Source: Tribonema minus (lineage: Eukaryota > Sar > Xanthophyceae > Tribonematales > Tribonemataceae). From it: 64,000 nt of DNA. The stretch is taken from assembly GCA_017506865.1 (NCBI GenBank), contig JAFCMP010000101.1, positions 992,001 to 1,056,000 of the forward strand, in the 5' to 3' direction. The notes under the pieces were generated by a model. That model was not told where the DNA came from. It saw nothing but the letters and a program-made list of their open reading frames with translations, and did not search any database. A program made the translations under genes and the position numbers. Shown piece after piece: positions 735 to 57,087 of the stretch (the stretch's first letter is position 1; the number at the start of each line of letters is the position of its first letter).

Positions 735-3700
735 TCATGGCATGTATCGAGTCCGGAACGCCTCTTTGACTGTCCGCACAACGTAGTCTACCAACAGGAC
801 CTTGACCTTGCGCCCAAATGCCTTCAGCCCCGGGTATTGATTCAACCAGATGGCACTCAGTCGGACAACGCGAAACCCGATACCACTGCTTTTTCTAATG
901 GTGCCTGTTGACAGTAGCGCCGCCAGTGGTGCAGGCAGCATCTGTACTTGACTGGAGAAGTTGTACCACGGTGATTTGAGGATGTAGAGAGCTAGAAATT
1001 CCCTTATACAGTGCACTAGCACTGCGATGCAACAGCAGACTGCCAAGTTTCGCAGCAGCGGGTGCGCACGTCGCCACTGTACTGCTGATGTAATACCCCA
1101 TGTTGCTCCTGCCATCAAGAGGTAGAGGAACGCAACAACAATGCCTTCCCACCACCATTGGTCCCTGCACAATGGCATTGTCAAGTCCGGTCAGAGTTCA
1201 AAGTCAGCAGATAACACAGGAGGGTGGGGAAATGTGTGTTGGTCGCAGCAGGCAAGCTGAACAGACCGATGTGCTGGGCAGGCAGTTGAGCCTGGTTGCT
1301 CCAAGGTGCATCAAGACCCGGTCGATCAGCTTGAAAGCCAAATTCACTACTGAGCGCAGTAACTGTCCAGGGCACTGTGAGGCATCGTTTCTGTGCTGCA
1401 AGCAATGGCAAGCAAGTACTTGACACCGCAGCTGCTACGCACGAGCACAATGACCAACGAGCAGAACCACAACTTCTTGTTCTTGGTGCGCAGCTCAAAG
1501 TGCCTTGTGATTGGTATTGGACAGATCGGGCAGTCTCACGCTGCCAGACTTTCGATTGAGGCTACAAGCCACCATGACCAGCAATGCATCAGGCTGCTGC
1601 ATCCTCTGTCCTCATCTTTCAATCATAGCTCTGTGCAGCAGGTACCAAGCACTTGATTAGCATTTGCAAGTACAAGGCGACACACCTACAACATGGCATT
1701 TCCACAGCCACAAGTGGAATATAATAAAAGTACATACCATAACATTGTGCATGTGGGGTGTAACTTTTCACCTGGCATTTGTACTGAAGAGCACAACTTT
1801 GTGGCCTGTGCTGTTGATACCCGTTGGCTTTGTACCATACTCCTGCGGGTTGCGGATGATGCAGTATATCTGCACGTACACACACGCAAGGCAACAACAA
1901 ATGTAGCAACATCGTGAGCACTCTCTGTTTGATGTTCAGCTTTAGATGGCAGATTGGCGCAAAACTTCAGTTGCCTCGTCCCCCGCACACACAAAAATCA
2001 TTCGCAGCGGTCCTGAAGCATGATGATGTACCGCGCAGTGTATACAAGCTGCAGCATGGTTTTATCAGTCACCCATACAGTCAAATTGCAGAGCACCCCT
2101 GTGCGGTGCCAGCAGAGGCATAGATGGCAACCTGCTGATTGTGTGGCTGATTGGGCCCCAGATCCGTGTCACTGCGGTTTGCTTCCATGCCAAAGGCATG
2201 GCATGGAGCAAGACGTTCTGTAACTTTCACTGCCCAACATGCCACAATGGTACCAGCAAATTCTGTGCAACTATTGACCCATTTGCGAGCAGCCCTGCCA
2301 GTTCCCTGCCACGTGGGGAAGCAACGCACCTTCCTCCTCATGTGCCAGTGACAGCAATCACATTTTTCCCAACAACAGTACAATCCTGCACTCAAGCAAA
2401 TACATGCAGGAGTTTGCTCCTAATGACAAGTGCATGTACATCACAAAGTATTTCTGAAGTATAATGCCATCATTTTACTGCCACTATCAACTCAATACGT
2501 ACCAGCCCCCCCACTCCCACGGTGTACGTAGCCAGGCTGACCATCAGCCACAGCGCCTTGCTGCGCACCAGTGCCAGCATGCGCGTTGGTTCCAACACCA
2601 CAAAGTGCGCTAGGACGGCCACCAGCGCAGCCGCCAGGCACACCGCCAGCTGCAGGTAGGTCATGTCACGCAGGACGACCAGGCTTTCACCGGTGGTCTC
2701 TGTGAACAACGCTGCAAATGTGTCCGGGCCTGCAGCAAGCACACAGGGGAGCGCGGTCAGATTGGCATGTCTTGCGCAAGCGACCAGTTGTGTAGGTAAG
2801 GTAGTGCCTTAAGGTTTTGAGGCGTGAGTTAGGTCAGACATAGCATATCTGCCCACGGGGTGCGCTGCTATTATTGAAGGGCTGCCTGGTGAAGCACAGT
2901 CGAACACGGACGCGTATGCTTATGTCGCCACTTGGTAGCATAAGTGCAGTCCAAGCTGTGCAGGCGATGCAGAACACAGCAAGGTGAAGCAACCAGATTT
3001 ACCTGAAGCCAGCAGCACATGCGTTCCTGCACCCAGCTTTTCTGGCAGGGCCTTCCCCATTGGGTACGCCTTGTCCGGTGGAAGCATGAAGATATGCGGG
3101 GCGCTCTGCAGCTGCACATTCATGAATGCCGATTTGCCACTGTCGACGTCGATGGTGACCTGTGTTGGCAAGACACCACATGACAGTCAAGTGGCTCTCA
3201 TCAATAAAAAAAGTCGCGTAACAATGCAATCATTCAGCTTGGTACCAGTGCTTTGAATTATTGTATGCATCCAATGCTGCATATATGGTGTTCATCAGGC
3301 AAGACAGGCAGGTGAGTGTGGTGCGCTGTGTCTTGTCGTGTTCAAATGGTTCAACTGCTACATGATGTACACATTATAGCTGTACCAGCTTGCTCCACCA
3401 GAAACCAGCCCGAGCGCCTTTCTCAATTGCACACAAGCGCCAGTACAGCCCGGCCCCACAACAGCGGTGAGATCATGTACTGTAGCAGGGATATGATGAA
3501 GCGTCATCACATGCTGGACGCTTCCGTGTCAAAGCTGACAGACAGTACAAACAGGCGCAGGCTGCACAGCGATCTGTGTGAGCGCATGCATCAAATGAAG
3601 CTATTGACAACACCAAATCTATTGAAATGATCACTGGTCTTAGCTGCTGCTTACCCAGAAAACAGGGCGATCTTCGTTCTGTACATCGTGTACAAGGTGG

Positions 3701-4119
3701 TAGCTCCTCGCCAGCTCCGCAAACTTTGGCTTGATGACGAGGCATTGCGAACATTTGAAGTGGGGGGCAGCGGCATTGAAAAGGATGACAACGTGGTATG
3801 GTCGAGGCGTGTTCATGACGAACCTGCAGCACGGAGTAGAAATTCAAAGTTGGGGTTAGTTGAGTGTCAACTAACGCGCTTCTGTTTGTGACTGGATCTC
3901 AAAATTGTGCCTTAATGGTATGCAACAATGAACGACTTGCCTGGTGAAATTTGCGTCTACGAGCGTAATGACATCACTTGGAGCTTGGCTGTGGGCCTGG
4001 CGCAGCGCAGCCAATTTGCTGGCTCCCGTATTGACAGTGCTGCTGCGTGCGGCGTGGACAGCTGCCACCAGGAGCCCACATAGCAGCAGCTCCAGCAGTC
4101 GCCGCGCACCCAAGCCCAT
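735..4119 (-). CDS. OST3/OST6 (TUSC3/MAGT1-type) oligosaccharyltransferase subunit
   Basis: Predicted ER membrane thiol-oxidoreductase subunit of the N-glycosylation complex. Six exons, in coding order: 4119-3941, 3823-3655, 3159-3003, 2729-2503, 2217-2132, 1164-735. All phases agree and give 415 residues. A signal peptide (GLGARRLLELLLCGLLVAAV) is followed by a thioredoxin-like domain. Its motif FKCSQCLVIKPKFAELARSY carries the CxxC pair used by the family to form mixed disulfides with substrates. Four membrane segments follow, and the end of the last one (HCIREFLALYILKSPWYNF) matches the family's C-terminal signature. Intron 1 starts with GC (CAG|GCAAGT), and the reading frame requires it. 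A tail of about 75 residues beyond the usual C-terminus is unusual; animal, plant and yeast members have about 330-350 residues. The family call is firm; OST3 versus OST6 is not resolved. Confidence 0.88.
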
Positions 4120-7200: not shown

Positions 7201-9529
7201 TTGCTCATCACCAAATGCAAGTAGAGGAGCGAGCACATGATAGTGCAATGACCTGTACTGCTTCACATGTCACTGCCTTGCATGTGACGCCATTTAGTTT
7301 CACATTATAAGTCGCAAATAGCAGCACATCCTGTTGACTCATGAGTGTATCATGTGAGACGGCCTGCGCACTTGCATCGCTGGCAGTACTTGTGCTTTCA
7401 TGTATTCATCCAATACTTCGAAGTATGCTGCTGCGCACAATGTGCGTGCATTGACTTGAGGTAGATGTACAGATGTACGCGCCAGTAGCATAACTGCCAT
7501 CGTCGTCATTAGCAGATCCGTAATGACGGCACCTGAATTTTGTCCCACTGTATTGTCATCAAGTCACGAGAGCCACAGATGCTCAGGCCTACTACTGCAT
7601 ACTGTTTTCGACAAACTACCCACATACGCCTCACGTGCCCTTGTGCCTGCTGCAGCCAACTTCAGCGGCCACTACTTGGTCCAGATGTATGGCATGACGG
7701 CTGTGCAGGCGGGGCTGGCCAGTAGCGTCATGCCACTGGCGGTGGTCTTCTGCGCGCCAGTTGCGGGGTTTGTCCTGGACAAGTTTGGGGGACAGCTCTA
7801 CGTGCTGCTCGTGTGCAACATCGTCACGCTGCTGGCATACGTCCTGCTGCTCAAGGTGACGGGGCAGTTGCTTCTGATTGGCATGAGAACACGTGGGCAT
7901 GCTCTCACCGCATGATGCCTACCTTGCTTGGTGGTGGTCATGCCCATCTGTCCTTTCATCCTTTCAACTGGAGGCCCGAGTGCTATCCCCTTGGTCGAGC
8001 ACTTTGTATTGCAGACGTGTATCCAGGATGCACCGTTGTGCATGCGGTCTGAATGTTGAAAGGGGTGTGCACCAGGGTGACTATAGTGGCACCGCACCCG
8101 CATCATTATGCTTGTAGGAACCAGCACAGTACTGATGGGTACTGGTGAACGGGGTGCCTTGTGCACATGGCGCTGCGTGATGCGCCTTGCCTTTTTCATG
8201 CATTGTCTGGCTGGCTGCTGTGTGTTCTTGTCACCTGGTGCAGGACTTGTGGAGCCCTGTCGCTTGCATCGTGCTTCTGGCACTGTGCGAGAGCTTTGTA
8301 CCGACGATACTGCTTTCGGCCTACCCACTCACAGGTATACAGTCTGGTCTGCAATATAACCCTGTAGCTTCACAGGCCAATAGCACATGTACTACTAGTA
8401 GTAGTGACATTTACATCTGGCGCGCGTCACATGTGATGGACATGGTGGGACCAGTGCTCTTGTCAACGGCAGCGGTTCTCTGCTGGCTTCTGGTGGACCA
8501 CTGTTGGACAGCGCAGTTCTTGCTGAAGACATGTACACACTGTAGCTGGTGTTACTTGTGGCCTGCAGTCTCGCTTCATCATGCTGCATGGCTGCACGTG
8601 TTTGAGATGGGCATCATGGTTGTAGTGCCGGTTTATTTGAGCCTATGCTGCGCAAAGCAAGTTGCAACATGCACCATGACACAGCATTGCTCAACTTGGG
8701 GGACCGCGTTCTGCGAACCAGCAGCAGTGTACTACGTGGGCTCATTGATGACATCCCTTCTGATATGGAGCTGAAAGCAGCTTCGACAGACAATTGCTAA
8801 TAACCCCCACAATCGTGCATCTTGAAGCGCGCCAAGTCCCTCACTGCGATATGTATGCAGGGGGCTTCACCATGAATTTGACAGCCGCTGATAGTGTCTC
8901 GTGCTCATCCGTTGCTGTCTCCAGTTGACAGGAGTGTATACGGTGCTGCGTTTGGCTTCAGCGAGGTGAGTCACACTTGTGCGACAGCTCCACTCGAGCG
9001 GTGTGCTGTGATGCATCCAGCAGGCTACGTTGACTGTTAGTCTTTAGTGTTGCTGCAAGTTGGCAAACCATGATTTGTGCTGCCAGGGCACAGAATGCTG
9101 AACTGCAGGGGCGTAAAGCATCATGGTCTGTCACATTGTGCACTGCATTTGTGCAAGTACAAGGACGCTGTATGGCCGGTGTATTCAACAAATGTGGGCT
9201 ATGCTTTCACAGCCAATGGTCATTATCAGGCACACAGTTTATTGTTGCAGAGCAGTGGCGCATCACTGCTGACCAATCTGACGCACAAACACTTGTTTGC
9301 GTGCCATTCTGTGCAGGTTGTGCAAGCCTTCGGGCTGCTGCTTGGCAACGTGTACATGGGGTGGGTGCGGGACACAACATCCTCCTACGAGGGGGACATA
9401 ATCTTTGTCATCTGCATGACTTTGGCATGCCTGTGCCTCACTCTGCTGCTCATAGTGTGGGACTGCAGACACGGCAACATTTTGAACTGCCCGCGTGGGC
9501 ATTATGGGTATAGAAGCCTCCAAGCATAG
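4254..9529 (+). CDS. MFSD1-like lysosomal major facilitator transporter
   Basis: Eleven exons: 4254-4305, 4392-4656, 4756-4861, 5237-5422, 5682-5849, 6120-6269, 6944-7142, 7656-7855, 8244-8334, 8925-8965, 9317-9529. They close in phase to 556 residues. The N-terminal cytosolic region of about 135 residues is Ser/Thr/Gly-rich and contains EGEEEELLAQS, an acidic dileucine of the kind that sorts MFSD1 to lysosomes. The first membrane segment (ILVSLVPFGSHFVKN) and the motif VIFGLGTGTLVVAQRAVVSQ, equivalent to the family's GIGGESLAVAQ, support MFSD1 over other MFS groups. The C-terminus ends YGYRSLQA, which includes a second possible sorting signal of the YxxL type. The start was chosen because only this ATG joins the acidic exon in phase. 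The substrate is not predictable from sequence; animal MFSD1 exports dipeptides. A central loop (residues near ERAASRAGVEEHG) is longer than usual. Confidence 0.85.
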
Positions 9530-10461
9530 TCCCTCCTCTCCCTTCGACACGACTCAAATGCACATGCCGCACAACGTGCCACCAGAGGCAAGGCACCCAG
9601 CTCAATAGACATCACATCACAGTTTCACATCTTGGTACACTGTTGACGGTGCATCGCTGCCAACAACAATGTATGCTACAGTGCCACATTATCTTCACCG
9701 TTGACAGTGGAGCCACCTTTTGTTATTGCAGTGCTGCACTGTGGAGTAGGGTTCAGATGAAGGCGCTCATTTCACGCCCTCCTTTTCCCCACGACATCAG
9801 TCAGCAATGATGATGTATGCTTTTGTTTTTGCGACCAGTGTTGTCCTGTAAATGGCGGTATAGTCATGGACCTAGCCTGGGTGCTTGTGCTTCCTGCGTG
9901 CCGTGCGTAACTCTGTGCCTGTTATGCCTTAAAAGCAGCAGTCCAGCACGACAGAATCCAATGAAAATGAACGACGTCATTACACATCCCCACCACTTTC
10001 ACAGCGGCCGCACTGATGTGTGGTGATTGGAGGCATACTAAATGGTCAGGTTGCCACGTACTACTGTAAATGTTGCGAAATGACACTCCACTGATGATGC
10101 AATCGCTGCCCTTTGACTCGGCTACAGAAGCGCTGACATGAGCCAGTTGCAAGCTTCAAGATATGTCAGGCATACAAACTCATTGCACGAAATCATACAC
10201 TTGGGAAGTTTTGATCATTGCCCAATCAATGCCATTGTTTGGTGCCGACAAGACCTCGTGAACGCTATTCCTTAATCTCATTGCTTGAACCACAAAACTG
10301 GCGGATGCGGCTCGCAGGCTGCTGCGAGAGCCGCTGACAACATCCGGAAGACAGAGATTACATACAGTGTACTATGTGCTCTGCACGCCACACAGGCGGC
10401 CTTTGCCCAGCCCTGCTGATGCTCCAGCTCCAGGCAACACGAAAGTACTCCACTATACACA
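9530..10461. other. Convergent intergenic region, no gene seen
   Basis: This separates the stop codons of the plus-strand transporter and the minus-strand Rdx gene, so it holds two 3' untranslated regions. TGTAA motifs occur near 9848 and 10067 but are not proof of polyadenylation sites. No open frame shows domain similarity. Confidence 0.5.
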
Positions 10462-16340: not shown

Positions 16341-18112
16341 ATGTCGTTCAGGGAGGAGATGGTCGCCCGCGCTGTCAAGTACGTGCAGACTGAGCCTAAT
16401 CGGGTGGGGGAGACTCGCCATGTCATGGAAAAAGCTGAGACCTGCTCCTGCGTGTGCTGTGTGCTGTCCTGCTGCCACAGGTTCTTGTTACACCCGAAGG
16501 TAGTGGACGCGCCTCTCAGCAAAAAGGTCAGTCTGAGTGCAGACATCATGTGTCATTACGACTGTTGTTTGTGCCTGCTTTCTCCAGCTCGTTCCGCATG
16601 TTGATCCATCGCTCATCGCCCTCTTGCTGCGCCTGTTGTCGCGTTGCTGTTCGCGACCTGCAGATCAGCTTTTTGGAAGAAAAGGAGCTGACGCGGGAGG
16701 TAAGCGCCCTTTGCTGCTGACCTGGCTGAGCTTCACAGGAAGTTGAAGTAATTGTGATCCGTGAGCACTACTGGTCCTCTAGGAAGGGCTCACCAGCAAC
16801 TAGTTTGCTTGCACTGACTGGCTGCATTATCAGCAGAGTACAGGATGGACTGCGTGCGCAGACAAGATGCTGGCCAGCATTTTTTAGCAGGCTCGTCGGG
16901 CTCGCTGCACATGCAGCTGACGTAATGATGGAATTATCGCGAAACCAAACGTACAGCCCCTTTTGCAACAAAGAGCTCACCAGCAATCGGGTTTATCTGC
17001 ACTAACTCAGTGCAGGATCAACGGAGTACAGAATACACAGATAAGGAGCTTGCGCCTGAAACATCCGCAATGTCTCAAACCTGTCAGACGCTTGACAAGG
17101 CAGAAAACACGCCTTATGTGTGTTGAACTGCTACTATGGAAAAGCACAGTACTCATGGTTGCATGCGCTCCACCGTTTTTTGATCAGGAAATAGATGAAG
17201 CACTGAAGCGGGCAGAGTCGCCAGAGTCTATTGGAGCAGCAGCATCCACAAGCAAGGCAAAGGCGCAACGAGAAACCATACAGCGGTTCGAACACGCGGG
17301 AGTACAGGGTGTGATCACAGGTGGCGTCCTGCATCTGAGCGCAGTGGCTGCCAAGGACCTGGGGGCGGATGCAGCAGGCCAGGCGCGGCAGGTGGGATAA
17401 CCTTCTTGTTGGTTTTGCCTCTTGGAAGGATGCCGCTAAACAGCTGTCACGTTGATGACTATGTACATCCAGCGGCCTGATTGACAGGCTACGCTTTGTT
17501 TACTGCACAATTGCTTGAGCGCACTTGGGCATGTGTGTTGGCGATCAACATAGCAAGTACAACGGCGGCTGACTTGAAATGGCGCCCATCGCTTTAAATG
17601 CAAAGACTATGGCGGGCTCTGTCTTTATTTGCTTGCATGCAACACGGAAGTGGGCAGGTGCGTTGTAGCTGTGCCTTAGGCATCATGGCGTGAACTGCTT
17701 GTAGTTGACTGACTCATGGGGTAATGCACAATTGATTGGTTCTGTGTGTGGAGCCTAACGACTTTGGCTCGTCTGTGTTTGCCAGTATGTATTTATATAA
17801 TAAATTATGATGGTGACACGGCACAAGCTGCGCTGTTTATCACGAAGTGTGTTGCTGCTGTTGGCTCATTTGCGCCTGCTCTTTCAGGTTCTGGAGCAAA
17901 TAGATGCAGTGTTACAGGCAAAAGGCGCCAGCAGGAGCCGCATCATATCGGCGACAGTGTTTGTACGCAATGCACAAACAGATGGGGGGGCAGTTGCTGC
18001 TGAGTGGGAGCTGTGGCTAGGAGGAGAGAATCACCCAGCGTTTGCTTGCGTGGAAGCAGGCACTGCAGTGCCAGCGCAGTTGGTGACCATACAAGTGACG
18101 GCAGCCATGTAA
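16341..18112 (+). CDS. PEX14 N-terminal domain fused to a RidA (YjgF/UK114) domain
   Basis: Five exons: 16341-16378, 16481-16526, 16664-16699, 17188-17391, 17888-18112, in phase, 182 residues. Residues 1-50 (REEMVARAVKFLLHPKVVDA, PLSKKISFLEEKELTREEID, EALKRAE) are a textbook PEX14 N-terminal domain, the helical module that binds WxxxF motifs of the peroxisomal receptor PEX5. After a short Ala/Ser linker, residues about 66-182 are a RidA-family domain: VITGGVLHLSAVAAKDLGAD, AGQARQVLEQIDAVLQAKGA, RIISATVFV. Exon 4 alone encodes both the end of the first domain and the start of the second, so the fusion does not rest on a doubtful splice. Normal PEX14 continues into a membrane segment and coiled coil, which are missing. 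The RidA catalytic arginine in PARxxVE is Phe160 here (PAFACVE). No PTS1 is present. Function unknown; a peroxisome-docking oligomer is an inference. Confidence 0.85.
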
Positions 18113-22134: not shown

Positions 22135-23781
22135 TTATGTCAAGAACCGTTCATTATCATCGTCAACAAAATGTTTTTCATCTCGTGCGCACTGCACCAT
22201 GATGCGCAGCTTTGACGTTGATTGTGTTTGAGTTTGCGGCAGCTGTCGCTGCTTTACGCAAGCATCGTCACTGCTAGATCTCGGTGCCTCTGCGCCAATG
22301 TTGGTTTCTGCATCTGATGGTGGCTTCAGGCCTGGAAGTGCCCCAGGCATCTTTGGTAACATGTGCTTCTGATGACGAGATTCATTCTTACCCAACAACA
22401 CAGCTTCACAACCAGGGGTGCAAGTGCTGCGCTGCTGCACGTGGTGTTGCAGTTTTCTTCTAAATTTCTGCAGCCCTTCCTTGCTGACGCCATTAGCATA
22501 TCTTCTGCCGCCTGTTGACAATTCCAATTTCGCTTGCGCTTCTGCAGCCAGTAATTGATTGAGGTATCTGATGTCTTCTGCCAGGTCCTGTCAACAGAGT
22601 ACCGCATGTACGAACGCGTTAGCAAGAAGGAGCATGTACAAAGCAATCATGCGTCTTCCATCAACTGCTTGGTTGAAAATGTTGTGCCTGCCCATAAGTG
22701 CTCAGCAGCACCCAGCTACCAGATGTAAAGCTCGCACAAGCGCACACTGACTGCTTCAAAGCGCTTGTTTGCATGGTTTAAAGTGTGTGACTGACCTGAT
22801 GATGTGACATCATTGATGTCTGATACACAACGACATACCAGATAGTTCCACACGTCAAGCATTTTGGTTGAGTATGGCTAACAGCGCACGCATTGCTTGA
22901 ACAGCTGCTGCAACTAAAAGCCTACGCATTGAAATATAAGTTTGGAGATGCGCATGATTGCACACTGTCAACACAACGGACAGTACCCATTTGAACTGCT
23001 CGCTCATCCCAAGTGTGTTGAGTTGGTTGCAATATAACTGCTTGGGTACGGGAGGGGCCAACTTCTTTTCAAAAAGCTGTCTTGATGCTTTTGACGGCCT
23101 GCGCTATCTAGAGCAGTGTCAGCCGAGACGGACTGCTGCGGTGCAGCACACCATTTTTGCGCGCCGCTTCCTCACCTGAGCCTCCTCCGCAAAGGCACCC
23201 CGCACCTGGTGCACCACAGAGTCAATAGCGTCCACTCCTAGCTCTCCATGCGTATTGCTACCAAGGACAGGCGCAGACTGCACCGATCTCTCGCTGAAAG
23301 CAGAAGCTGGGCGCGTTCTGCTGCACGTGCGCGCGCTGGCTGCATGTCGTTGCTCTGTTGCTGCGATATATTCGTAAACAGCCTTGTCGCTGCCATCCGC
23401 TATGAGCACTTGCGCACCATATCTGCTGTCGGTCTCGCACTCTCTGAGAAGCATTCGGATGTGTTGTTCTAGCAGTGACCAGCCAGGTTCGTCTCCCTGC
23501 AGAGCTCCGGGTCGGCGCATCGTGCCGCCTGCGCCCTTCTCTTCATCGATGCTGTCCAGAATGTCTTCAAGAGCTTTCACTTCTGCACGCAGGCTTTCAT
23601 TCTGTTCTATGACGTGATGCCCGATGACCCTCTGTATGACTGCCTTTTCTTGTGGCCTCAGCGTGGCCTCCATGCGCTGCCAGAGGGTCGCCATGATTTG
23701 GAGTGTGTGAGCTTGGACCTCGCAGCGCACTCCGAGTTGTGTGGAATAGAGTGACAGCTCTTTGAGCTCAGAAGCTAGCAC
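22135..23781 (-). CDS. Unrecognised coiled-coil protein
   Basis: Four exons: about 23781-23176, 23076-22987, 22877-22839, 22587-22135, in phase, about 395 residues. I do not recognise the family. Exon 1 is strongly helical (LRPQEKAVIQRVIGHHVIEQ, NESLRAEVKALEDILDSIDE) and then Arg/Ser-rich. Exon 2 is distinctive, FEKKLAPPVPKQLYCNQLNT then LGMSEQFKW, which looks like a conserved short domain rather than generic coil. It is followed by MLDVWNYLDLAEDIRYLNQL. The C-terminal 130 residues are polar and low complexity. The first codon of the open frame is GTG; the first in-frame ATG is at 23694, so an upstream exon or a later start is likely. The acceptors of exons 2 and 3 lack strong pyrimidine tracts. 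It is co-directional with the IFI44-like gene and divergent from PGAP6. Confidence 0.55.
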
Positions 23782-24012
23782 TAGGTCTCTTCAAGCTCTC
23801 GCTGCGTTCTGACTTTACTGAAAGACACTGCCCATGCTGTCCTCACATGCTGTCTACGCTGTCACACCATCAAAAACGTTCTGACGTTACATTGACAACG
23901 GCGAGAAGAACTTCAACACACCTTGATCCCGAGGTGAACGAGGTGGTCCTGCTATGTAGCTGCGCTATGCATTTCCTGATTAGTATTGCAGCTCTCTGTC
24001 TCGGCAGTCTCC
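23782..24012. promoter_or_regulatory. Divergent upstream region, coiled-coil and PGAP6-like genes
   Basis: About 230 bases lie between the visible starts of oppositely oriented genes. No recognised motif. Inference from layout. Confidence 0.3.
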
Positions 24013-30000: not shown

Positions 30001-30937
30001 ACGCAGACGGTGCCATCGACATGGATGCACTGTCTGCGCAATGCCGTGGTTGCCGTTCTGGTTACTCCAGGACACTTTGACTTGAGGATGCTCGCGTGCG
30101 GAGTGGCACTACTGGTGGCCGCCATGGTGACGTTCGCGCTGCAGGGCAATGTGCACTACGCGCTCACGCACAGCTGCTGGCATGTGCTATCGCTGGCATC
30201 CACCTACTTCTTCCTGAGGGCCAGGTACGTTAGGGATATCCTAAACGAGTGGATGTATGCCACATACATAGTGCCCTGCTTTCCATTGCATTTGACCACA
30301 GTAAGAACACCATCCCTTGAGTTGAAGCAAGACAGTGTAAGTGTTGTGCAACACATGGTCCACTTGCCAATGGACTTGAGATCGCAAGGTGTGCAGGCTG
30401 GCATCCTCTCGTAAAGTCGTTCCAGTTAAAACGAGTTAACTTCAACACAATGCAGGCGTGCAGTTGGTAACAGACGGCGCCAACAGCATGCCACGTCTCG
30501 CGATCATCAGGTGCTGCTTTTGAGCTCAATGAGCTGGAGATGGCTGATGTCATGCGCCAGAAAGGCCAGTGCTGTTCTCTTGATGCACCTGGCTGGACAG
30601 GATGCTGTCAGCTCAGTTGGTAACAGACGGCGCCAACAGCATGCCACGTCTCGCGATCATCAGGTGCTGCTTTTGAGCTCAATGAGCTGGAGATGGCTGA
30701 TGTCATGCGCCAGAAAGGCCAGTGCTGTCCTCTTGATGCACCTGGCTGGACAGGATGCTGTCAGCTCAGTTGGGTCATGCATGCCACCTTTATTAAATGT
30801 TTGAAATGGATTGCTGCCTTGTGCTCTTCAGGCAATGGCACGGCAGCGACGGCTCGCAGCTGATGCCGAATGGCGCTGATGCCAACCCCACTCAATGCCT
30901 CTTTGACGTGGAGGAAGACAGGGCAGACGAGGGGTGA
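24013..30937 (+). CDS. PGAP6/TMEM8-like membrane protein of the CREST superfamily
   Basis: Exons found: 24013-24324, 24426-24573, 24831-25070, 25326-25594, 25895-26090, 26452-26564, 27015-27192, 27540-27782, 28082-28271, 29137-29292, 29800-30224, 30832-30937. They give about 858 residues; human TMEM8A has 771. A signal peptide (HSARLLLVLANWLRL) leads a long lumenal region with several N-glycosylation sites. An EGF-like Cys cluster (VGTCYCKYGWGGEGC) comes next and then seven membrane segments. The core has ALYHLCD and HSCWH, the paired His/Asp and HxxxH motifs of putative CREST hydrolases; PGAP6 acts as a phospholipase on GPI anchors. The position four residues before the first His is Ala, where human has Ser. 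One short exon between 28272 and 29136, of length 1 modulo 3, is not resolved. The acidic C-terminus ends with ADEG. Confidence 0.8.
26645..26748 (+). repeat. 52-bp tandem duplication
   Basis: Two near-identical copies of 52 bases sit head to tail in the PGAP6-like intron between 26565 and 27014. They differ at a few positions. Both contain GCCCATTGG or GCTCATTGG and then TCTGTCACGCAATGG. Confidence 0.85.
30463..30772 (+). repeat. 152-bp tandem duplication in last PGAP6-like intron
   Basis: Two almost identical copies (starts at 30463 and 30615) lie head to tail, with a short third start at 30768. Only about one substitution is seen (CTGTTCTC versus CTGTCCTC), so the duplication looks recent. 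One open frame runs through both copies but ignores the exon structure around it. Confidence 0.92.
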
Positions 30938-54929: not shown

Positions 54930-57087
54930 TTACAAGCCTTGCGGTCGTGACTTGGATCGTTCCAACTGCTCACGCATGCGGCGTACCAGGTCTGGCACTG
55001 ATGCTGTGGCAGCTGAGAAGACTGGGACGGTTTTGTCTGATACAGGATTCCCACTGGGGTGCAATGCTGACTGTGGTGGCAGCAGCACCTGCTCAGCAAC
55101 ATGTACCCGCACATGCATACTACTGCCTGCGCAAGTGCGGAATCCATACTTGCCGCTGCTGCTCTCATGCAGTTGCATCTGAGCAGAAGCGGGTCCCGGT
55201 GCATGTCTGAGTGAACTTGCTCCGCCCAAATGGTAATCCCACAGCTGCGCGCTTAGGGTTGGTTGCGGGCACCATGTTCGGACATCCACATCATGAGTGC
55301 CAGGTGTCCGCGGGAGAAAAACATGCCCGTAGCCTGCCACCGTCTGCTTACCAAAGTTGTGTGTACTGCACAATTTGACGAACAACTGCGGTGTGCTGCC
55401 AATGCTATTGGGCTCTTCATGATGAATCAGCTCCATCTCTACTGGATGGCCAAAGTGCACACACTCTGAGCTGGAGCTGTCCTGTGGACCGATTCCCGCA
55501 TACACGCTGCAGAGAAGCACCAGCAGCAGTGCAGTAAGGAAAATGGATTCGCTGCCTACAACGAGGGCCACTGCCAGCAGGACTGCCAGCAACGCGGCGC
55601 AGCCCTTCATGGGCAAGTGCGGAGCATGCACACTTTCGGAGGCCGCTGCAGACCGCCATACAATGGTGCTGTAAGCTGCATGTGTGCTGCCAGAAAGTGC
55701 ACACCTGCCATCTTCAAACTGGTGCCATGTGCCTGAGTCAGCACTCTCAACTGATGACCAGCCTAAAGGAAGGACAACTTCAAACTCTGTGGTGCAGCAG
55801 CCGCCAAGGTCACCAGCGGCTGACATCAGCTCCAAAAGCAGGTACACACGACTTGACGACGGCAAAACTGATGCAGGTGACAAATTCAACCCTGCTCCCT
55901 GCCGCTGGCCAGCAACTTGCTTTGCATCCGCAATATTCTGCTGCACGGTCCACTCCTCGGTGTGCTTGGAACTGCTGGCACCTTCTGCTATGTTCTCTAT
56001 TGTGTACTCAAACACATTGCCCCTGCGGGAGGTGAAGGAGTAGCTGTTCAATCGCGGGCCTGCCTTGTCTTCCTTGTGAAGCATGTGGTCAGAGGGGAAG
56101 GCGCCTTCCTCGCCAACGTCGGCCTGTTTGGTACTGAAGCCTGGCGTCACCTCCAGCAATCCGCTGTCATGGGCCTTGACCTCACATAGCACCTTTTCTG
56201 TCATATCCAGCACACCATCGCGAGCGGCGGCAAGATCTACGTCCACTGCTGCAACAATGAAGAATGCAGAGCAAGTGCCATCAGGCTCTGCTGCTCTGGG
56301 CAAGCGAATAGCTGACACTGTCTCACTTGTTGCCCGTGGCTGATGCCCTGTAGTCTGGTGCTCGGACACGCTGTTGTGCGCACTACGCACAAATCGGTCT
56401 TTCTCAACATACGTGTAGAGTATAATCTCCGACAGTCCGTCCTGGAAGGGCTCGCCATCGTCAGCTCCGAGCCCTTGCCTTCCTCGCAGCGCGTTACGCC
56501 TCTCAATCAGCTCGTGGGGACACAGCACTTTCTCCTGCCAGCGCAGTTCCAGTACAGTCTCTGCTGCACTGTCAATGGCCTTCTCGTCCCTGTGAATCTC
56601 ATTGATGGAGGCGCCACTGATCTGAAGCGGCACGGGGTGAGGCATAGACACTGTCAGGTGCGTCACACTACTACTCAGTTGATGAAGTTTGCTGCGTTTA
56701 GGTACCTAAGAAGATTTTGTGCTGATAGTCCTGATGCTGCCAGGTGAGCCAGATACATGTGCAGGACACTAGCGCGTTGTGCACTACACATCTGGCATTA
56801 TAATACAAAAGTGCATCTCCAATGACCAGGACATGAACTTTGCTGCATTGCGGATTCCACGCGGAGTAAGAGTACAATCGTCACTCAAATGGTGGTGGCA
56901 CACAACTGTTTCTTATCCCACGCATGTCATGTGAGATAAGGCAGCAGAGAGTTGCGAGGTCATCTGCTAGCACTAGCGAGCTGATTCTGACTTTTGTGAA
57001 GCTCACCCTTTGCAACCTGACTCGGAAAAGCACGGAGGCGCTAGGATCCGGAACACGGTAGTACTGGGGCTGAAGAAGAGGATCCAT
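54930..57087 (-). CDS. MKS1: MKS1-like B9-domain ciliary transition-zone protein
   Basis: Two exons: 57087-57007 and 56621-54930, in phase, 590 residues (human MKS1 559). MKS1 acts at the ciliary base, where with other B9 and membrane proteins it forms the transition-zone gate. The N-terminus YYRVPDPSASVLFRVRLQR matches human YRSRDPVRNLRLRVHLQR. Then come ELRWQEKVL (human IGWQEKLF), IILYTYVEKDRF and FEYTIENI. The C-terminal third is the B9 domain: EVVLPLGWSS, VAGYGHVFLPRTPGTHDVDV, DYHLGGASSL, KYGFRTCAGS. A Pro/Arg-poor hydrophobic stretch at about residues 364-402 (55610-55494), including GCAALLAVLLAVALVVG and SIFLTALLLVLLCSVYAG, interrupts the B9 domain and could span or dip into a membrane. 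It might instead be an in-frame retained intron, but no clean frame-preserving splice pair was found. The ends of the gene are well supported. Confidence 0.88.

Follow-up and report, generated by a model that had tools for sequence, protein, structure and literature searches.

A predicted gene joining a PEX14 N-terminal domain to a degenerate Rid2-like domain in Tribonema minus

The fusion gene and its exons

The window, which is the whole stretch of DNA analysed, comprises 64,000 nucleotides of contig JAFCMP010000101.1 of Tribonema minus (positions 992,001 to 1,056,000 of the forward strand, assembly GCA_017506865.1). The fusion gene lies at 16341-18112 on the plus strand of this window and consists of five exons forming a single frame of 182 residues, for which a mass of 19.3 kDa is calculated. 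All four introns are of the GT-AG type, with lengths of 102, 137, 488 and 496 bases. The original prediction of a 182-residue protein from this region was reproduced when the gene model was derived again, with the following exons:

16341-16378, plus strand: exon 1, the ATG and the first Pex14_N residues (aa 1-13, codon 13 split), with the donor GTACGTGCAG
16481-16526, plus strand: exon 2, the Pex14_N core FLLHPKVVDAPLSKK (aa 13-28)
16664-16699, plus strand: exon 3, Pex14_N ISFLEEKELTRE (aa 29-40)
17188-17391, plus strand: exon 4, the end of Pex14_N (EIDEALKR), the linker and the N-terminal portion of the Rid domain (aa 41-108)
17888-18112, plus strand: exon 5, the remainder of the Rid2-like domain and the stop codon, with the conserved Arg replaced by Phe and the conserved Glu by Thr

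An extension of exon 1 to a CGG/GTGGGG donor was dropped as it would put Pex14_N out of frame; with GTACGTGC as donor, AVK/FLL results. By codon log-odds, calculated from a table built from four stretches only, the coding frame outscores the two other forward frames in all five exons, and one reverse frame outscores the coding frame in exon 1. Of 5000 stretches of equal length drawn at random from the window, 0.34% reach the codon score of the gene. At the DNA level, the fusion is well supported as a real spliced gene.

The whole protein matches two Pfam families at E values up to 10. These are Pex14_N, with 54.7 bits over residues 4-48 (cut-off 23.2), and Ribonuc_L-PSP, with 50.6 bits over residues 79-181 (cut-off 27.3). 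The fusion point lies inside exon 4, a single uninterrupted open exon of 204 bases. Exons 1-3 alone give a Pex14_N match of 43.2 bits to profile positions 2-38, and in the whole protein this match extends to position 46 of 46, with the last eight residues encoded by exon 4. The start of exon 4 adds 11.5 bits to Pex14_N, exactly at the canonical acceptor. For Ribonuc_L-PSP, exon 5 alone scores 36.1 bits (profile positions 48-120), and addition of exon 4 brings this to 50.2 bits (positions 12-120). Taken alone, exon 4 has no Pfam match with an E value of 10 or below. The earlier claim that this exon crosses the domain boundary in one open frame is borne out by the bits that it contributes to both matches.

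One objection to this model would be that two tandem genes, one for a PEX14 fragment and one for Rid, were merged, the start of the Rid gene lying within intron 3. The frame of exon 4 is indeed open upstream from 16921, inside this intron, and contains ATGs at 17116 and 17155, so that a transcript could begin there; the missing Pfam match of exon 4 alone would also suit two genes. Against this, there is no in-frame ATG inside exon 4, and its first residues finish the Pex14_N profile at the acceptor. Because exon 4 raises the scores of both domain matches, a merged model is judged highly improbable, although the frame runs open into the intron; the statement that the fusion is not a splice artefact agrees with this.

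The PEX14-like half and the second PEX14 of the genome

The genome comprises 158 Mb in 554 contigs. With each exon counted separately, it has 92 chlorophyll-binding matches, which mark the organism as photosynthetic. A second Pex14_N is encoded on contig C532 (L009, G000:C532:94500-104000, minus strand), with a score of 52.8 bits, or 50.1 bits when the typed frame is scored. A hydrophobic segment with a 19-residue mean of 1.61 comes next in this open frame. Downstream are coiled-coil-like exons and a PUB-like end, recognised by eye, which may belong to another gene; the PUB match scores 18.1 bits, under the cut-off of 34.3. From these matches, an ordinary PEX14 is very probably encoded on C532, and the fusion in the window is an extra, PEX14-derived gene. 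The idea that the fusion is the sole PEX14 of the organism was rejected, as C532 carries another. The genome search with PF04695 missed the intron-split copy in the window itself, and other split copies could be missed likewise. The Pex14_N stretch forms one open frame on C532 and is split by three introns in the window. As these introns interrupt the window copy only, the fusion is not a fresh copy of the C532 gene.

The Pex14_N of the fusion shares identical residues with that of the C532 PEX14 at 24 of 40 positions and with the PEX14 chain of rat at 22 of 46. Residues K34, F35, F52 and K56 of PEX14, which we take to be those gripping the WxxxF of PEX5, align with K13, F14, F31 and K35 of the fusion and are all kept. 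In the same alignment, N38 of PEX14 is replaced by His and G57 by Glu. Since the four contact positions are kept, this half seems suited to binding WxxxF/Y motifs. A PEX5-like TPR exon is located on contig C42, and about 14 kb upstream of it lies an open frame containing WAAEF that could be part of PEX5 or separate from it. The sequence near the TPR exon is repetitive (L040, about 8060-9100), with YEY-rich repeats in several frames and NRSEEALPVYE-like pieces recurring at about 7.8, 9.3 and 9.4 kb.

No PEX14-type transmembrane segment is evident in the fusion by simple hydropathy, the measure on which the predicted lack of one is upheld. The maximum 19-residue Kyte-Doolittle mean of 1.38 is found at residues 77-95, the start of the Rid match. 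Residues 1-76 reach a maximum of 0.85, compared with the 1.61 of the C532 segment. Across the window, tblastn with pieces of the C532 PEX14 returned no convincing further membrane or C-terminal exons of PEX14, and no convincing rival PEX14 exon set at the locus. The best match of the membrane piece covers 16 residues on the other strand (10405-10452, E 0.031), and none is close to the fusion gene. Two coiled-coil-like exons of C532 had no tblastn match near the fusion gene by a method that is weak for short exons; these could escape, the fusion's own exon 2 being recovered only at E 0.033. The protein ends in TAAM, by eye not a PTS1-like ending.

The Rid-like half, its relatives and comparable proteins

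The protein had originally been described as a fusion of Pex14_N and RidA. The fusion itself stands, with both Pfam domains above cut-off, and the RidA identity does not, as the second domain is nearer to Rid2/YoaB, in a degenerate form, than to RidA proper. Four NCBIfam models match the fusion protein, none of them at cut-off; the best is RutC (30.1 bits, cut-off 169.1), and the archetypal RidA model TIGR00004 gives 29.1 bits against a cut-off of 106.25. A total of 38 matches to solved structures (E up to 0.1) comprise the Rid family over the C-terminal part, PEX14 N-domains over the N-terminal part and one ribosomal S20 chain (E 0.093). PSPTO_0102 and PA5083, both classed as Rid2 in excerpts of PMC5619798, are among the top four. 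As expected of a Rid2 protein, the domain matches the Ribonuc_L-PSP profile and has Rid2 proteins among its best structural matches.

The conserved substrate-binding Arg is Phe in the fusion and the conserved Glu is Thr, and both residues are present in 15/15 Rid2-like relatives, 12 of them aligned and three (L032-L034) read by eye. These relatives are all nine from the genome_contigs collection, five of 157 plasmid records and a stand-alone gene of the same genome on contig C201. The usual AGQ is SAV in the fusion and is also missing from the relatives L023, L036 and L037. In excerpts of PMC4433059 it is reported that exchange of the Arg for Ala almost abolished activity in plant and Salmonella RidA, and that exchange of the Glu for Ala had a small effect in Salmonella RidA. 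Given the latter result, little can be concluded from the lost Glu alone. Ordinary imine hydrolysis is argued against by the lost Arg, to which the Glu adds little, and the domain is probably no imine deaminase of known kind. The same source notes Ser in place of the Arg in about 10% of RidA proteins, and a domain that lacks the Arg may thus still have a function.

Identity of the fusion's Rid domain to 11 bacterial rows of a tree is 35-42% (37-42% for ten and 35% for one), and 30% to the C201 gene. The tree has 15 rows, L032-L034 being omitted as near-copies, and does not settle the placement of the domain, with eight of its 12 inner branches open. The end branch of the fusion measures 1.21 against a median of 0.32, a length that also fits relaxed constraint.

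The subfamilies Rid1-7 have been termed exclusively prokaryotic (PMC5619798, in part) and primarily bacterial (PMC4433059, in part). Both the C201 gene and the fusion are taken to be eukaryotic because they have introns. The C201 gene (L010, G000:C201:1041500-1050000, exons at about 1541-3888) retains the Arg (APPRATV), has introns at other places than the fusion as read, and possibly begins with a targeting leader. It is 58% identical to a Variovorax Rid2-like protein, despite the description of Rid2 as prokaryotic. A further, intronless Rid frame is found beside frames that look bacterial by eye on the 25-kb contig C283 (L012, G000:C283:3000-11000), possibly a bacterial contaminant.

The fusion is known from one genome, the collections searched being bacterial, viral and plasmid. 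In genome_contigs, the fusion query gave 299 pattern matches, of which nine were confirmed, all in bacterial records. Ribonuc_L-PSP is present in all nine and Pex14_N in none (Pfam, E up to 1). Four bacterial tblastn matches begin at query residues 43, 45, 48 and 71, in the PEX14-linker part or just behind it. None of 33 pattern matches in viral_contigs was confirmed, and 157 records of the plasmid collection match the query, five of which were fetched.

No description of a Pex14_N and Rid layout was found in open-licence papers at the level of title and abstract, in line with the earlier statement that no protein of this layout had been described. As far as the searches of this literature reach, the fusion combines known parts in a new domain layout. 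It shares with PEX14 the PEX5-binding Pex14_N domain, above the Pfam cut-off, and differs in having a Rid2-like domain in place of an evident membrane segment or coiled coil, and in its length of 182 residues. The PEX33 of filamentous fungi is likewise a PEX14 paralogue; it is part of the docking complex, and no Rid domain is mentioned in the excerpts concerned (PMC8172628). Pex14_N is also joined to an extra domain in the Thalassiosira PEX14, the partner being PUB rather than Rid in the part of PMC3407069 that tabulates it; the C532 PEX14, with its weak PUB match below cut-off, resembles this diatom layout. Among Rid proteins, the Rid2/YoaB members PSPTO_0102 and PA5083 belong to the same domain family as the second half of the fusion, which differs in lacking the Arg and the Glu and in carrying an N-terminal Pex14_N. 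In the 3x-RidA tandems, Rid domains are joined to each other (PMC4433059, in part), unlike the fusion. Dph6 proteins with Rid domains are a further case of Rid joined to a different partner. The genome encodes one such frame of 946 residues on contig C528 (L011, 2999-5836, minus strand), with Diphthami_syn_2 and Rid matches in the ordinary Dph6-like layout and no Pex14_N.

Possible roles of the fusion protein

The known setting of the PEX14 N-domain is a membrane protein. The fusion may be a soluble, probably trimeric Pex14_N mimic that binds PEX5, built on a Rid domain without the hydrolysis arginine; this is the leading candidate, proposed from the sequence with somewhat less than even confidence. 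Rid proteins are typically trimers (PMC4433059, in part). PEX14 is itself mentioned as a trimer whose N-domain is the PEX5-binding part, and its N-domains bind several Wxxx(F/Y) motifs of PEX5 (excerpts of PMC12738837). The Rid domain would now most likely serve as an assembly scaffold only, from which three Pex14_N modules project, each on a linker of some 20-30 residues. Bound to the WxxxF/Y motifs of PEX5, this particle would either compete with membrane PEX14 or aid it and thereby tune the availability of the receptor. We infer expression, trimer formation, PEX5 binding and a regulatory effect of the fusion protein. The long Rid branch, the replacements of G57 by Glu and N38 by His, and the occurrence in one genome count against the soluble binder.

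A more specific and more doubtful proposal is that of a soluble trimeric PEX14 surrogate, in which a disarmed bacterial-type Rid trimer has replaced both the membrane anchor and the coiled-coil trimeriser, and which regulates or chaperones the PEX5 receptor in free form. In the leading reading too, a soluble arrangement would stand in place of the trimeric, membrane-anchored one of PEX14, keeping the number of Pex14_N arms and dropping the membrane. In yeast, PEX14 and PEX17 form a 3:1 complex, mainly via coiled coils (excerpts of PMC8172628).

Alternatively, Pex14_N could be a targeting handle that binds cytosolic PEX5 and carries the Rid-like domain by piggy-back into the peroxisome, where amino-acid oxidases produce imines. 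This is considered unlikely. The missing PTS1 and the intact PEX5-contact positions are consistent with such a route, although we know of no cargo that enters the peroxisome via a Pex14_N of its own. Three of five bacterial Rid2 loci adjoin an FAD-binding oxidoreductase, amino acid deaminase or alanine racemase, which speaks for this route; one of the others has a membrane dipeptidase neighbour and one is without annotation. Tested Rid2 proteins act on imines from amino-acid oxidase and D-arginine dehydrogenase (PMC5619798 and PMC4433059, both in part). With the arginine lost, however, there is little known reason to bring the domain to oxidases.

It is similarly improbable that the fusion arose by rearrangement, lost its Rid function and is now decaying or neutral with no selected role. 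The lost conserved residues, the long branch and the single genome would be explained by decay. On the other hand, the frame stays open for 182 codons in five exons, its four introns are canonical, its codon use resembles that of coding sequence, and the PEX5-contact positions are intact. Still less probable is an enzyme of changed specificity, acting like Rid4-7 and tethered to the import receptor. In excerpts of PMC4433059, Rid4-7 lack the arginine and presumably have other functions, and the RidA proteins with Ser at this position point the same way; Rid4-7 nevertheless retain the glutamate, which is Thr in the fusion, and the fusion is nearest to Rid2 among solved structures.

If the soluble PEX5 binder is real, it would provide a natural soluble Pex14_N on an oligomer scaffold, with which the effect of the domain on PEX5 could be studied without the membrane. 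This effect is still debated for cargo release (PMC12738837 and PMC4065332, in part). With the fusion, a subfamily described as restricted to prokaryotes or mainly bacterial would also gain a disarmed Rid2-like domain from a eukaryote. Provided that it is conserved and expressed, the fusion would point to a layer of peroxisome-import control, none of which was found described in the open-licence literature, and a true trimeric PEX14 surrogate would represent a new class of peroxisome-import factor.

Other features were recorded elsewhere in the window. A CCDC24-family match of 51.1 bits is located at 23122-23790 on the minus strand. At 30461-30773 there is a tandem repeat of two copies of a 153-base unit with 99% matches, just behind an open frame with a DUF3522 match below cut-off. 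A match of 71.3 bits to a B9-C2 ciliary basal-body protein at 54933-56705 on the minus strand suggests that the alga may make cilia.
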